Shown in pieces: positions 21,307 to 56,980 of a stretch of 64,000 nucleotides of DNA. Below the pieces are notes generated by a model, which saw nothing but the letters and a program-made list of their open reading frames with translations, did no database searches and was not told the DNA's origin. Positions within the stretch are counted from its first letter, which is position 1, and each line of letters begins with the position of its first letter. The position numbers and the translations under genes are program-made. Origin of the DNA: Methylosarcina fibrata AML-C10 (GTDB lineage: Bacteria; Pseudomonadota; Gammaproteobacteria; Methylococcales; Methylomonadaceae); contig NZ_KB889965.1 of the NCBI RefSeq assembly GCF_000372865.1, forward strand, positions 1,385,902 through 1,449,901. Direction: 5' to 3'.

Positions 21307-26487
<5,181 letters not shown>

Positions 26488-35054: not shown

Positions 35055-35115
35055 AGAGGTGGCCCCAAAGCTTTGAACAGATATCTCCGAAATTAAGGTG
35101 GAATCCTGCTGTTGA

Positions 35116-36015
35116 TTAGGCTGCCATTTTGACCGGTGGCAACATGCCGGTATAAGCTTGATAGGGCGTTTTCCGACCCAGGCTGGAATGTGGCCTGGCT
35201 CGATTGTACCATTCCACATAGTTCATGACCGAGGTTCTTGCCTGAGCGACCGACTCGTCAGCATGGAGATAAACGCACTCGTATTTCACTGAGCGCCACA
35301 CGCGTTCGACGAAGACATTATCTCGCCAAGCTCCCCGGCCGTCCATGCGCAGCTTGCAACCGTTTTCCAGCACCGTATCGACAAACACCTGGGCAGTCAA
35401 TTGACTCCCCTGGTCCGTGTTGACGATCTCGGGTGTGCCGTACCGCCTGAATGCTTCCTGAAGCACATCCACCGCATGGCAGGCTTCCAGGGTAATCGCC
35501 AGTTTGGCCGCCAATACTTTGCGGCTGGCCCAGTCCACCACGGCCGTCAGGTAAGCAAAGCCTTTGGCCAGTCGAATATAAGTCGTATCCAGTGCCCACA
35601 CCTGATTAGAACGATGAATCGCCATGCCACGCAACAAGTAAGGATAGATTTTATGTCCAGGTTGCTGCTTACTGGTGTTGGGCTTGCAATACAGCGCCGC
35701 CATACCCATCCGCTGCATCAGGGTTTTGACATGCTTGCGACCGACCGCGATGCCTTGGTCATGCAATTGATCGCGCAACATTCTCGCCCCCATGAACGGG
35801 TGTTTCAAATGCAGTTCATCCAGCCGCCGCATCAGCTCCAAATCACGCTCCGAGACCGATTTGGGCAAATAATAGACGCTACCCCGGCTCATATTGAGCA
35901 AGTCGGCCTGACGGCTGATCGACAGTTTCGAGTCACGGTCTATCATCGCTTTGCGCTCAGCAATCCCGCCTTGCTGAGCGCGCCTTCTACCCAAAGGGCA
36001 CAAGTAAAAAATCAT
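35116..36015 (-). CDS. IS3-family transposase OrfB (DDE integrase)
   Basis: 299-residue frame. It has the HTH_21 region (KHPFMGARMLRDQLHDQGI) and an rve integrase core with DTTYIRL, NTDQGSQL and VERVWRSVKYE, supplying the D, D and E residues, then YNRARPHSSLGRKTPYQAY at the end. The frame overlaps OrfA by 29 bases in the -1 position at a run of Ts. That is the usual arrangement for a programmed frameshift giving an OrfAB fusion, though initiation at MIDRDSK (about 24 residues in) is also possible. It appears intact. Confidence 0.9.
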   Translation of the reverse strand: MIFYLCPLGRRRAQQGGIAERKAMIDRDSKLSISRQADLLNMSRGSVYYLPKSVSERDLELMRRLDELHLKHPFMGARMLRDQLHDQGIAVGRKHVKTLMQRMGMAALYCKPNTSKQQPGHKIYPYLLRGMAIHRSNQVWALDTTYIRLAKGFAYLTAVVDWASRKVLAAKLAITLEACHAVDVLQEAFRRYGTPEIVNTDQGSQLTAQVFVDTVLENGCKLRMDGRGAWRDNVFVERVWRSVKYECVYLHADESVAQARTSVMNYVEWYNRARPHSSLGRKTPYQAYTGMLPPVKMAA

Positions 36016-36265
36016 TCTCCAACGTCAATTGCCCGATCTTGGCATGCAACGCCTGCAGATCGACAGCGGGCGACGCCGTTTCAGGCGATTTGCCAAAGAC
36101 CTCGGCCGCCCGCTCCGTCAGTTGTCGCTTCCAGTCGGTAATCTGGTTTGGGTGAACTTCGAATTCCTGAGCCAGCTGCGCCAGGGTTTTATCACCCGCC
36201 AGCGCCGCCATGGCAACTTTGGCCTTGAAAGCCGGTGAGTGTTTTCTTCTCGTTTTGAGTGACAT
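35987..36265 (-). CDS. IS3-family transposase OrfA
   Basis: 92 residues with a helix-turn-helix (KAKVAMAALAGDKTLAQLAQ) and a leucine-zipper-like tail (LHAKIGQLTLENDFL), the standard OrfA layout. It stops inside OrfB. The sequence GATTTTTTACTT in the overlap is a plausible slippery site. Confidence 0.88.
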   Translation of the reverse strand: MSLKTRRKHSPAFKAKVAMAALAGDKTLAQLAQEFEVHPNQITDWKRQLTERAAEVFGKSPETASPAVDLQALHAKIGQLTLENDFLLVPFG

Positions 36266-36355
36266 CTTCTGCTCCGTTTTAACGTCCTTCTGGACATTCT
36301 ACAGTAGCAGGTCTTCCACTTAACAGGCTGTTCAATTTTTCGGCTCCACCTCTTT

Positions 36356-37636
36356 GAGCAATGCGATGCCTGGTTAACACACAAAAATAAACTGCGCTAC
36401 TGGTGTGCTTGGCGAAAAGTGAGACAGGACGCTATTTCCTCTGGTTTGGTGCCATTAATTGAGGGTATCGAACAAGGGTATACGGATGGTTTATCCGCAA
36501 AAGAGTTGTTATTGGTTAATTATTCACGTTGGTGGGTAAATTCGGTTATTGATCATGACGAGGTATTGAGAAATTTTATTCCGGCTGAGCATCGTCAAAA
36601 AATCCGAATATATCATCAGTTAGATACAGACTTTATGCAACTTACTCAGGAATATGTCAAAGCGCTGTTAGCTACCGGTATTCCTAAAGCACAAGACATT
36701 CAGAAAGGATCTGAATGGGGCGTGTTAGCGCGTGAGATTCAAAAGAAAACACGTCATATGCCGCTCCGCCAATTGATGAGTCAAATGCCCGAGGTGATTA
36801 CCAAATTGACCCCTTGCGTGATGATGAGTCCTATGAGTATAGCGCAATACCTTCCGGCTAATAGTAAGGCATTTGATGTGGTGATCTTTGATGAGGCAAG
36901 TCAAATTACTGTACCTGATGCCATTGGCGCAGTCGCCAGAGCTAAACAGGCGATTGTAGTCGGCGATCCAAAGCAGCTTTCGCCTAGCTCCTTCTTTGCT
37001 AAGAAATCAGGCAATGATGAGTACTCCGATGATTTTGAAGAGGATATGGAGTCCATTTTAGATGAATGTTTAGCCGCAAACATTCCTTGTATGCATCTAA
37101 ATTGGCATTACCGCTCGCGCTGTGAATCGTTAATTACTTTCTCTAATCATAAATACTATGGTGGCAAGCTGGTTACCTTTCCGAATAATGATACTCGTGG
37201 CATGTCAGTGCATTATCATGCGGTCGATTCAATCTATAAGGAAGGTCAGAATCGCATCAATCGAGGTGAAGCGGAAGCGATTGTCGAGAATATCGTTACC
37301 AAATTACGCCAGCCTGGCTTTAATAAATCCATTGGCATTGTGACATTTAATATGGAGCAACAGAAATTAATTAGTGATTTATTTGAAGCCGCGCGCAGCC
37401 GGTACCCAGAAATAGAACCGCATTTTGCTGAAGATAAGTTTGATTCCGTGTTTGTTAAAAATTTGGAAAGTGTTCAGGGAGATGAGCGTGATTTGATTTA
37501 TTTCTCTATCACCTTCGGTAAAGATGCCGCCGGCAAGTTGAGTATGAATTTCGGCCCGATGAATCAAGCCGGTGGTATGCGCAGATTAAATGTTGCGGTG
37601 ACTAGGGCCAAAGAAGAAATGCATGTGTTTACTTCA
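36356..37636 (+). pseudogene. HheA-like DUF4011-type helicase, helicase part (5' end lost, 3' end split by IS)
   Basis: Open frame entering directly from the IS3 end (FEQCDAWLTHKN), without its normal start; the GTG at 36419 is internal. It holds the second half of a superfamily 1 helicase: VVIFDEASQITVPDA (Walker B), VVGDPKQLSPSSFF, SIGIVTFNMEQQ, SVQGDERDLIYFSI and MRRLNVAVTRAKEEM. These match large DUF4011/DUF3320 helicases, including HheA described as an antiphage protein. The N-terminal DUF4011 part and Walker A are absent. Base composition is clearly more AT-rich than the surroundings. Translation would end shortly inside the IS5-family element. Confidence 0.8.
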
Positions 37637-38893
37637 GGGCACCTCGAAAAACCCAAGGCTATGAGAAAATAGCATTTTCAAATGGATAGCCGGTAAAGCG
37701 ATGATTAAAGAGAGCCTGTTTGCAGCCGAAGAACGAGAAGCCAAGCTGGATAAGCTGGGCGACATTCTGCAGGTGTTGGAGAAACACGTGGACTTCAAAG
37801 CCTTGTCGCAAGCGATTGATCAATCGGCGCCACGGCCCGACCGAACCCAAGGCGGTCGCCCGCCGTTTCCGACGGAAGTCATAGTTAGAGTGGTCGTGTT
37901 ACAGCAACTCTACAATCTGAGCGACGAACAAATGGAGTTTCAACTGCTGGACAGGCTAAGCTTCCAGCGGTTTGTCGGTTTGCGTCAGAGCAGCCAAATT
38001 CCCGACCGGACGACCCTGTGGACCTTCAAGGAACGGTTGGTTGAGGCCAATGCCAGCGAAACCTTATTCGACGCCGTCAACCGGGAATTGAACAAACACG
38101 GCTACCTCGCACGTTGCGGGCAAATCGTTGATGCCACCCTCGTCCCCGCGCCACGGCAGCGGCTCAACAAAGACGAGAAAGTGTTGGTCAAACAGGATGC
38201 CATGCCGATCGATTGGACGCCTGCGCAACGTCGGCAGAAAGACATCGACGCCACCTGGACCAAGAAACACGGCAAATCGTACTATGGCTACAAGTTATCC
38301 ACGAGCGCCGACAAACGCTATAAGCTGATCCGCAAACTCAAAGTCAGCACCGCCAGCGAACACGACACGCATCATCTGGAAGCCGTGCTGGATACGGGCA
38401 ACACGAGCCGTGATGTTTATGCCGACAAAGGTTACGTGGACAGCGAGCGTGAAGCCCGACTGCAAGAGGACGGTTGGCGCACGCATATCCAGCGCAAAGC
38501 GCCCAAGGGCAAACCATTATCGGACTGTCAACAGCGACGCAATCAGCGGATTGCCAAAAGTCGTGCCCGGGTCGAACACGTCTATGCCAGCCTGCAACAG
38601 ATGGGCGGCAAGGGCTTGCGCTGTATTGGCCTGGATCGGGCTGTGTTGCAGCTCAATCTGAAGGCGGCCACTTATAACTTACGCCGTTTATGTAGCCTGA
38701 AAACCAGCGGCGTGGCCTCGGCTTTTGCCTGTTAGCAGGCAAAGTGCGCCTGAAGGGCGGATAGAGATCGCCTTCAGGCTGAAAAAAAACCGCTCCAGGC
38801 GGGTGAAAAATAGCCTGTTTCCAGCTGGCATTGGTTGATTGGCTATATCAACTGTGACTTGATGGCTAATTTGGGTGGTTTTTCGAGGTACCC
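37637..38893 (+). mobile_element. IS5-family insertion sequence with TTCA target duplication
   Basis: 1257 bp. The inverted repeats begin GGGCACCTCGAAAAACC at 37637 and, read from the other end, GGGTACCTCGAAAAACC at 38893. TTCA is duplicated at 37633-37636 and 38894-38897. Removing the element and one TTCA joins the helicase frame perfectly to the downstream endonuclease frame (HVFTS-LKPEQIDL), so this insertion is recent and unambiguous. Confidence 0.93.
37701..38735 (+). CDS. IS5-family transposase
   Basis: 344 residues, apparently intact. It has an N-terminal domain with GGRPPFPTEVIVRVVVLQ, and a DDE core with IVDATLVPAPRQR, then VYADKGYVDSEREARL, and RARVEHVYASLQQM holding the terminal E region. 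The order and spacing (D..., ADKGY, RxxVE) are typical of IS5-family enzymes. Confidence 0.9.
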   Translation: MIKESLFAAEEREAKLDKLGDILQVLEKHVDFKALSQAIDQSAPRPDRTQGGRPPFPTEVIVRVVVLQQLYNLSDEQMEFQLLDRLSFQRFVGLRQSSQIPDRTTLWTFKERLVEANASETLFDAVNRELNKHGYLARCGQIVDATLVPAPRQRLNKDEKVLVKQDAMPIDWTPAQRRQKDIDATWTKKHGKSYYGYKLSTSADKRYKLIRKLKVSTASEHDTHHLEAVLDTGNTSRDVYADKGYVDSEREARLQEDGWRTHIQRKAPKGKPLSDCQQRRNQRIAKSRARVEHVYASLQQMGGKGLRCIGLDRAVLQLNLKAATYNLRRLCSLKTSGVASAFAC

Positions 38894-39395
38894 TTCATTA
38901 AAACCGGAACAAATTGATTTATCACGTACCGGTGCTGAAGGTATCAGAGATTTAAAGCATTTTCTTGAATATGCGCAACGAGGCATTTCCGCTCTGACTG
39001 AAGCAGTAGGCGCGCCCGGCGGCTTTTTTGATTCGCCATTTGAACAAGCCGTTGCTGAAAAGCTGCATGCGAAAGGTTGGGTAACCCATTCTCAAGTGGG
39101 TGTATCTGGATTCCGGATTGATCTTGGCGTGATTAATCCTGATGCTCCTGGTCAGTATCTGTGTGCTGTCGAGTGTGATGGTGCCAGTTACCATAGCTCT
39201 GCTACCGCAAGAGATCGTGATTTTTTAAGAGAGCAGGTGTTAAGAGGTTTGGGTTGGGAGGTAATCCGTATCTGGTCGACAGATTGGTGGATTGATTCCG
39301 AATCGGCTTTAAAACATGTTGATGAGCAATTACATAAGCTGCTGGTAGAGTATCGGGCGGAAAATGTTGGCCCAATTTTATTTGCTGATGCGTAA
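38894..39395 (+). pseudogene. HheA-like protein, C-terminal endonuclease part
   Basis: Continues the interrupted helicase frame from LKPEQIDLSRTGAEG to the natural stop. DLKHFLEYAQRGI is followed by a PD-(D/E)XK endonuclease domain of the Vsr/MTES_1575 type: SPFEQAVAEKL, FRIDLGVINPDAP and CAVECDGASYH carry the expected E, D and E-x-D-like residues, then WEVIRIWSTDWW. The active site looks intact. The protein ends without a DUF3320 tail. An upstream start inside the IS at 38835 could give an orphan 186-residue protein. Confidence 0.8.
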
Positions 39396-39752
39396 GAAAT
39401 CTCGGGGTTATCTATCGGAATGCGCGAAAAGCCCTGTCGTTCAGGACGGGGATGAATAGCATGAACGGCAGCGCCGTCCTCTAAATTTAATGTGGTATAA
39501 GCAGTAACGCGATAACCTTTCTAAGCGGCGTAAGCGGTAATTGTCAAAACTGTCGCCTCAAAAATTTCCCGAAAGAGAATTTTAGAAGACAACCATGAAA
39601 GAAACTTACAGTGACGGCTACAAAGAACAAGTTTTGGTCAAAGTGTATAATCGCAGAATTAACCCGGATATTTCATCAAAAAAGAGTCGGCACTGTCTTG
39701 AAACTCGCATAAAATCTACTTGCGAATTAAATTTTGTGAAGGGGCTCTGCCG
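39396..39752. other. Insertion-sequence debris: IS605-like 3' hairpin and a transposase start fragment
   Basis: At 39432-39451, CCCTGTC-GTTCAG-GACGGGG forms a stem-loop within AAGCCCTGTCGTTC, followed by GGATGAATAGC. This resembles the conserved 3' end (omega RNA scaffold and right end) of IS200/IS605 tnpB elements. No tnpB frame remains. At 39595, MKETYSDGYKEQVLVKVYNR looks like the first 20 residues of an IS3-type OrfA-like transposase and then stops matching. Confidence 0.45.
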
Positions 39753-40282
39753 ATGGCAAATTGTACCGCAGACTCAATGAATTTTGGACGCCTGGGGCGA
39801 CGAATCATCGAGGTTAATTTTCAGGGTGACGCCATCAGTTCCGATGGCGGTCTGATGCTATTACGTCAAGTCGACCAGCGCATCGGCTTGTCCAAAGCCG
39901 TCGCTGACTGGGAGTCCGAATTGGAAGCAGCGTACCCCCAAAGCCACGGCAAACAGCGGATGATTCGTGAGTTCCGGCCGCCGTCCTGGAAGACGGAACC
40001 GCGCCTGGTGACGCGGCTCGAATTCGGCAGTCAAGGGCGTATCCGCGCTTCGTGGTCACCAACCTCGAACGACCGGCGGCGCTTTACGACGAATTATATT
40101 GCCGGTGCGGCAAAGCCGAAAACCGGATCAAGGAAGCCCTACCGGATTTGTTCGGCACCCGAGCCAGTTGTCATACGTTCCTGGCCAACTGGCTGCGGCT
40201 GTTGCTCAATGACGAGGCATCGCTGCCGAACTGCCCTTGTTTTCCAGCCAGTAGCGAAAACCCGGTAAATCGGAGTGAATGA
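39753..40282 (+). pseudogene. IS1380-family transposase relic with internal deletion
   Basis: It opens with MNFGRLGRRIIEVNFQGDAI and SSDGGLMLLRQVDQRIGL, the conserved start of IS1380 transposases. After about 60 codons the text jumps (near 39965) to a frame-shifted remnant. From about 40050 another frame carries FVVTNLERP-like VTNLERPAALYDELYC and KEALPDLFGTRASCHTFLAN, the family's C-terminal block. The central catalytic region is deleted, so it is inactive. Confidence 0.75.
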
Positions 40283-55584: not shown

Positions 55585-56980
55585 CACTGCCATTAAGTTA
55601 AGCAACCTTTGGGAGCGGTAAAGGTCGTAGAAGGATTTGGAGGCCGTCATGGACAAAAAAGCAGGCGTTGAACCGGAGCCGAGAGAAAATCAGCGATGAG
55701 GTTTTCAAGCGGCGGCACTCGGCGACGGACCGAGCCTTCACCCGGTTGCGCAGCTTGCCTTTCAGTTTAGTGCTGGTAATGGTGCTCCGGAACAGTGTGA
55801 AGGCCCTCCAGAACGTGGTGAACGAGGTCATGGCGTGGTTGGAGCAGTGCCCGGTGACTGCCAGCGCGTACTCACAAGCCCGCTACAAATTCAAACATAC
55901 GGCTTTCATCGAACTGAACGAGGAAGCCGTGGTGCGGGCGATGTATGGAAGCAACTATCTGACGTTCTGGGGGATGCGCATTCTGGCTGTGGACGGTTCC
56001 CGCCTGATCCTGCCGAACACCGAAGAGGTCAGGCAAGCGTTCGGAACACTCCCCCACACGAATGGCCGGGACGCGGGACGGCTTGGGGAACATCCCTACG
56101 CCACGGCGTCGGTGCTGTTTGATGTTCTGAATCGCGTGGCGTTGGACGCGACGCTGGGATGCGCTAAGGCCTACGAAGTAGATCTCGCCGTGGCGCACCT
56201 GCCCCATACCCGCCCAGGCGACCTTCTGATCATGGACCGGAATTATGCATCCTACCGGATTCTCGCGGAGTTCGTCCATCACGGACGTGATTTCGTGATC
56301 CGCTGTTCTGCGGCCTCATTCGGGCCTGCGCAAAGGATGATGAGAGGAGAAGGGCCTGACAGCCAGATCGTCACGCTGGTTCCGTGCGCTGCGCAAGCGG
56401 GTCCGGTTCGCCAGCTTGGCCTGCCCGCATCCATCAAGGCGAGGTTTGTGCGCGTCCTGCTGAATACGGGTGAGTGGGAGGTGCTGGTCACCTCCTTGCT
56501 CGACGAAATCCGATATTCCACGACAGAATTTCGGTCGCTCTATGCCTGGCGTTGGGGGATTGAAACATTTTACGGCTTGCTTAAAACCCGGCTGGAATTG
56601 GAGAACTTCACGGGTAACGGCGCCGAGGCCGTGCGTCAGGACTTCCACGCCACCATTTACCTGTCCGGCTTGGAATCCATCCTGACCGAACCGGCCCAAG
56701 CCCGCTTGGACGCGAGGACAACCCGTTATCCACAAGCCGTGAACCGCTCGGTCTCCTTCAATGCCATCAAGATGGCCGCTCTGGAATTGCTCTCCAGTGA
56801 TCTCAACTTGGAGCCGCTGCTGGAACGGTTGACTCAGTTATTCCAGACCAGCCCCGTAACGGTCCGGCCAGACCGTTCCCCTCCGCGCCGGAAGCCTTCC
56901 GACCGCGTTTCGCTGAATTTCCATAAGCGCAAGAAAAAGCACGGTTTATAGGACTGGCAAACCTTAACTTAATGACAGTG
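55585..56980 (+). mobile_element. IS4-family insertion sequence with 11-bp target duplication
   Basis: 1396 bp. Inverted repeats start CACTGCCATTAAGTTAAG at 55585 and, from the other end, CACTGTCATTAAGTTAAG at 56980. The 11-bp CGGCTTACCGG is duplicated exactly at 55574-55584 and 56981-56991. Complete ends, an intact transposase and a perfect duplication indicate a recent, probably active insertion. Confidence 0.93.
55668..56951 (+). CDS. IS4-family transposase
   Basis: 427 residues, intact. DDE core: ILAVDGSRLILPN (first Asp), GDLLIMDRNYASYRIL (second Asp), and YAWRWGIETFYGLLKTRLEL, the Y-(2)-R-(3)-E-(6)-K-like signature of IS4 transposases with the final Glu. The N-terminal region (RLRSLPFSLVLVMVLRNSVK) also fits. 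The start may lie a few codons downstream. Confidence 0.92.
   Translation: MNRSREKISDEVFKRRHSATDRAFTRLRSLPFSLVLVMVLRNSVKALQNVVNEVMAWLEQCPVTASAYSQARYKFKHTAFIELNEEAVVRAMYGSNYLTFWGMRILAVDGSRLILPNTEEVRQAFGTLPHTNGRDAGRLGEHPYATASVLFDVLNRVALDATLGCAKAYEVDLAVAHLPHTRPGDLLIMDRNYASYRILAEFVHHGRDFVIRCSAASFGPAQRMMRGEGPDSQIVTLVPCAAQAGPVRQLGLPASIKARFVRVLLNTGEWEVLVTSLLDEIRYSTTEFRSLYAWRWGIETFYGLLKTRLELENFTGNGAEAVRQDFHATIYLSGLESILTEPAQARLDARTTRYPQAVNRSVSFNAIKMAALELLSSDLNLEPLLERLTQLFQTSPVTVRPDRSPPRRKPSDRVSLNFHKRKKKHGL

Follow-up and report, generated by a model that had tools for sequence, protein, structure and literature searches.

Two gene pieces separated by an IS5-family element

The locus lies in a 64,000 nt stretch of the Methylosarcina fibrata AML-C10 genome (GCF_000372865.1, contig NZ_KB889965.1, positions 1,385,902 to 1,449,901 of the forward strand), which we call the window and whose coordinates are used throughout. 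The gene remnant under study occupies 36354-39395. As a reference intact orthologue we used L003, the ProA-type gene locus of genome G023, which belongs to another genus of the same family. The first piece, remnant A (36354-37636, forward strand), is the C-terminal part of a Upf1-like SF1 helicase and contains the end of AAA_11 followed by AAA_12, as identified with Pfam. It retains the motifs DEASQ, GDPKQL and RLNVAVTRAK, has neither Walker A nor DUF4011, and is 94.5% identical at the DNA level to L003:7978-9260. Remnant B (38898-39395, forward strand) comprises a PD-(D/E)XK nuclease domain of the MTES_1575 type (Pfam, E 1.5e-35) together with the stop codon. On the ProA model remnant A covers positions 1140-1559 with about 652-660 bits, and remnant B covers the consecutive positions 1560-1713 with 222 bits. 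Neither piece has gained a stop or a frameshift and all 155 near-invariant residues (109 and 46 in the two pieces) are unchanged, in line with the intact PD-(D/E)XK domain reported in a preliminary description of this DNA.

The two pieces are divided by an insertion sequence of 1,257 bp (37637-38893, forward strand) that encodes a transposase at 37701-38735 and is bounded by terminal inverted repeats (GGGCACCTCGAAAAACC / GGGTACCTCGAAAAACC) and by a TTCA target duplication (37633-37636 / 38894-38897). The transposase scores 282 bits on the IS5 profile NF033581 (cut-off 140); together with the inverted ends and the short duplicated target, this gives the element all three features of the IS5 family. 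Elsewhere in the genome lies another copy (G000:C1:3574755-3576011), which is 99.9% identical, differing by a single base, and is flanked by a 4-bp ACGG duplication. When the element and one TTCA are skipped, HVFTS reads in frame into LKPEQIDL, as the preliminary description had pointed out. That this join is not a mere coincidence of reading frame follows from the relatives, since more than 30 of those covering the joint (among them L003-L010, L012, L014-L030 and L037) carry it without a gap in one ORF, with no residue gained or lost. The same comparison bears on the idea that the two pieces were separate genes all along in this lineage with the insertion sequence lying in between. We found no point in its favor; relatives inspected for two separate genes free of the element had one uninterrupted ORF instead, and the TTCA duplication flanking the element also speaks against it, so that this explanation can be given practically no weight. 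The helicase remnant and the nuclease domain are divided by a clean IS5-family insertion.

The N-terminal part is lost from the genome

On its left the remnant adjoins an IS3-family insertion sequence of 1,299 bp (35055-36353, reverse strand) with two overlapping ORFs, orfA (35987-36265) and orfB (35116-36015), and imperfect inverted ends (AGAGGTGG...CCACCTCT). It scores 231 bits on the IS3 transposase profile NF033516 (cut-off 160) and is present in three copies in the genome, which align over exactly 35055-36353. DNA homology to the intact gene begins at base 36354, within 2 bp of the start at 36356 originally proposed. The intact gene of L003 extends about 1,150 codons further upstream, including DUF4011 and Walker A. 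When the whole 4.98 Mb genome was searched for the first 1,195 residues of the L003 frame, the sole match was a stretch of 72 residues, 40% identical, in a distant paralogue. In particular the missing part was absent from elsewhere in the genome, where an inversion between IS3 copies would have placed it, and the sequences directly beside the other two IS3 copies showed no trace of it. Neither the left nor the right flank of the remnant showed homology to the intact loci. Because the N-terminal part of about 1,150 amino acids is absent from the whole genome, the left-hand event is a loss and not a simple interruption. The earlier picture of a gene broken twice by insertion sequences consequently holds for the IS5-family insertion on the right, while on the left some 1,150 codons have been deleted up to the IS3 copy. 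The surviving portion had been called a C-terminal half; it amounts to one third, some 585 codons out of roughly 1,740. Nor is it itself of DUF4011 type, since DUF4011 lies in the N-terminal part of L003 and gave no Pfam match in what survives.

How the loss came about may be approached from the ends of the IS3 copy. It is the presumed cause of the N-terminal loss, either through a deletion next to it or because IS copies recombined with one another. The copy at the remnant is flanked by TTG on both sides, resembling a 3-bp duplication, although such a match would arise by chance once in 64 cases, and the other two copies have no 3-bp duplication. If the TTG duplication were real, the gene would already have been truncated at this point before the IS3 element landed.

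Other transposon-derived sequences lie in the window. Just downstream of the remnant, at 39720-40265 (forward strand), a partial transposase matches the first ~60 of 435 positions of DDE_Tnp_1_4 and constitutes a third transposable-element trace beside it; a further DDE_Tnp_1 transposase gene is found at 55668-56948 (forward strand).

The pieces derive from a ProA gene

Intact orthologues are encoded as single ORFs of ~1,630-1,890 amino acids in many Methylococcales, and in L003 the domain order is DUF4011, AAA_11, AAA_12, MTES_1575. To assign the family we relied on two NCBIfam models. With ProA (NF058533, cut-off 1,500 bits) L003 scores 2,073 bits and the Burkholderia orthologue L014 2,312 bits, whereas with Hhe (NF042953, cut-off 2,000 bits) the same proteins reach 825 and 858 bits. 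The two window pieces give about 880 bits on ProA (660 + 222), a value under the cut-off because two thirds of the protein are missing. The nuclease follows the helicase as in ProA; the DUF4011 domain and Walker A motif of the N-terminal part are present in L003 but found neither in the window pieces nor in the genome. What the window holds is the remnant of a ProA gene and not a working ProA. The PADLOC models agree with this ranking: PDC-S37, a PADLOC candidate system, scores 527 bits on remnant A, 188 on remnant B and 1,220 on L003, and Hhe comes second with 244 and 127 bits for the pieces and 545 for L003.

The preliminary description had placed the gene close to HheA, in a sister family, and a broken Hhe gene has some appeal as it is the better-known name for this architecture and both pieces do score well on the Hhe models (244 and 127 bits with PADLOC; 358 and 166 bits with NCBIfam). 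However, ProA / PDC-S37 is clearly higher on each piece and the intact orthologues pass the ProA cut-off and stay below the equivalog cut-off of Hhe, which makes an Hhe origin very improbable. Among the profiles suggested at the outset, MTES_1575 matched remnant B and Hhe matched both pieces, but DUF4011 matched neither and Hhe was outscored. The broader proposal, a fusion of a helicase with a PD-(D/E)XK (MTES_1575) nuclease related to antiphage proteins, is upheld.

Two further large proteins deserve mention. Elsewhere in the same genome, L049:2573-7309 (G000:C1:3772072-3776808) encodes an intact 1,579-aa protein that shares with the remnant the combination of AAA_11, AAA_12 and MTES_1575 in one chain. 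It differs in having no DUF4011 match, is 26-30% identical to the remnant, and with 184 bits to ProA falls below both the ProA and the Hhe cut-offs. Within the window, 21307-26487 (reverse strand) encodes a 1,726-aa protein with a RecQ-type helicase (residues ~295-645) and a UvrD-type helicase (~1080-1570), whose matches to DpdF, PsyrT and GajB models are confined to the helicase regions.

Lateral acquisition and recent loss

From an evolutionary point of view the remnant is far closer to the G023 gene than the two genomes are to each other. Comparing the window genome with G023, gyrB is 73.5% identical in DNA (42.5% at third codon positions) and rpoB 78.7% (48.1%), as against 94.1% (86.9%) for the ProA remnant and L003. 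The GC content at third positions is 0.39 in the remnant compared with 0.70 and 0.65 in the gyrB and rpoB of its own genome, and 0.375 in the gyrB of G023. Third-position identity and composition together show that the gene entered from a branch of the family with lower GC, long after the two genomes had parted, and strongly support the lateral acquisition that had been put forward. Its distribution is patchy: of 201 genomes sampled from the family, 11 exceed the ProA cut-off, and in L003 the gene stands alone between genes whose translations are predicted to be housekeeping. A search for plasmid copies of the region returned matches of the IS3 transposase type only; relatives of remnant A at <60% identity occur on 447 plasmid records, 218 of which are predicted to be conjugative.

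The gene was kept until recently. The dN/dS ratio between remnant and L003 is 0.077, and replacement and silent changes number 6:18 on the window branch and 5:11 on the L003 branch, so that the window branch is no worse. This low ratio, the lack of stops and frameshifts and the unchanged near-invariant residues show that purifying selection acted until recently, and support the recent silencing proposed initially.

Could the nuclease domain be made alone?

An in-frame ORF of 186 aa (38835-39395, forward strand) starts at a TTG within the IS5 end, takes in remnant B and makes up a candidate nuclease-only product. It had been suggested that the nuclease domain could still be made alone from such a start codon; it might then act as a small nuclease. 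The frame is indeed open from TTG 38835 or ATG 38862, both in the IS5 end, through the stop, and the near-invariant nuclease residues are all present. We found no sigma-70-like promoter in the IS5 right end, a region with fewer matches than shuffled sequences, and no purine-rich ribosome site upstream of either codon. Moreover an intact domain is expected anyway after a recent break in a gene that was under purifying selection as a whole, and intact catalytic residues are therefore not evidence of continued use. Of this suggestion the open frame stands, and expression is very unlikely; a shade less likely still is a reading in which the IS5-family insertion released the nuclease as a small, expressed protein of its own with a cellular role.

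Taken as a whole, the data favor a laterally acquired ProA-type antiphage gene that is now a pseudogene, to which we assign a probability of roughly 93%. The intact gene encodes a single protein with DUF4011, a Upf1-like SF1 helicase and an MTES_1575 nuclease, in which, judging from knowledge of the family, ATP-driven translocation on nucleic acid may deliver the nuclease to invading DNA. An SF1 helicase that has no Walker A motif does not hydrolyze ATP. As the ATP-binding motif is gone, the remnant is incapable of such ATP-driven delivery. As a pseudogene it is ordinary, the defence family it belongs to is known, and it reveals no new mechanism. Its value is that of a well-documented case in which a single-gene antiphage system was gained and rapidly lost within a family of methane-oxidising bacteria, where a donor-like lineage is visible and the order of events, that of IS3 insertion and truncation aside, can be read from the sequence.

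Comparison with known systems

Our literature search found no paper on the mechanism of ProA, PDC-S37 or HheA and no measurement of antiphage activity for any Methylococcales copy. The solved relatives found by sequence are Upf1, Sen1, SMUBP-2 and Dna2, and Hhe falls in SF1_Upf1 in a published helicase phylogeny (PMC10925250). The C-terminal module appears to be variable: most Methylococcales ProA proteins stop directly after the nuclease, and L003, L004, L005, L008, L032 and L037 all end there, L014 from Burkholderia has a DUF3320 tail, and L007 has a different tail of ~150 aa without a Pfam match.

With ProA (NF058533) and PDC-S37 the gene shares its domain order, and its intact orthologues match close to full length. 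The window copy differs from ProA in lacking model positions 1 to ~1130 and in being split by an insertion sequence, and the Methylococcales orthologues end near position 1712 of the 1903 in the model and lack the DUF3320 tail of the Burkholderia protein. With Hhe (NF042953; also listed as Gao Hhe) it has in common the architecture of DUF4011, Upf1-like SF1 helicase and nuclease, but the intact orthologue of the window gene, at 825 bits, remains far under the 2,000-bit cut-off. DUF4011 helicase-nucleases described as 'Hhe-like' should thus be compared with ProA / PDC-S37.
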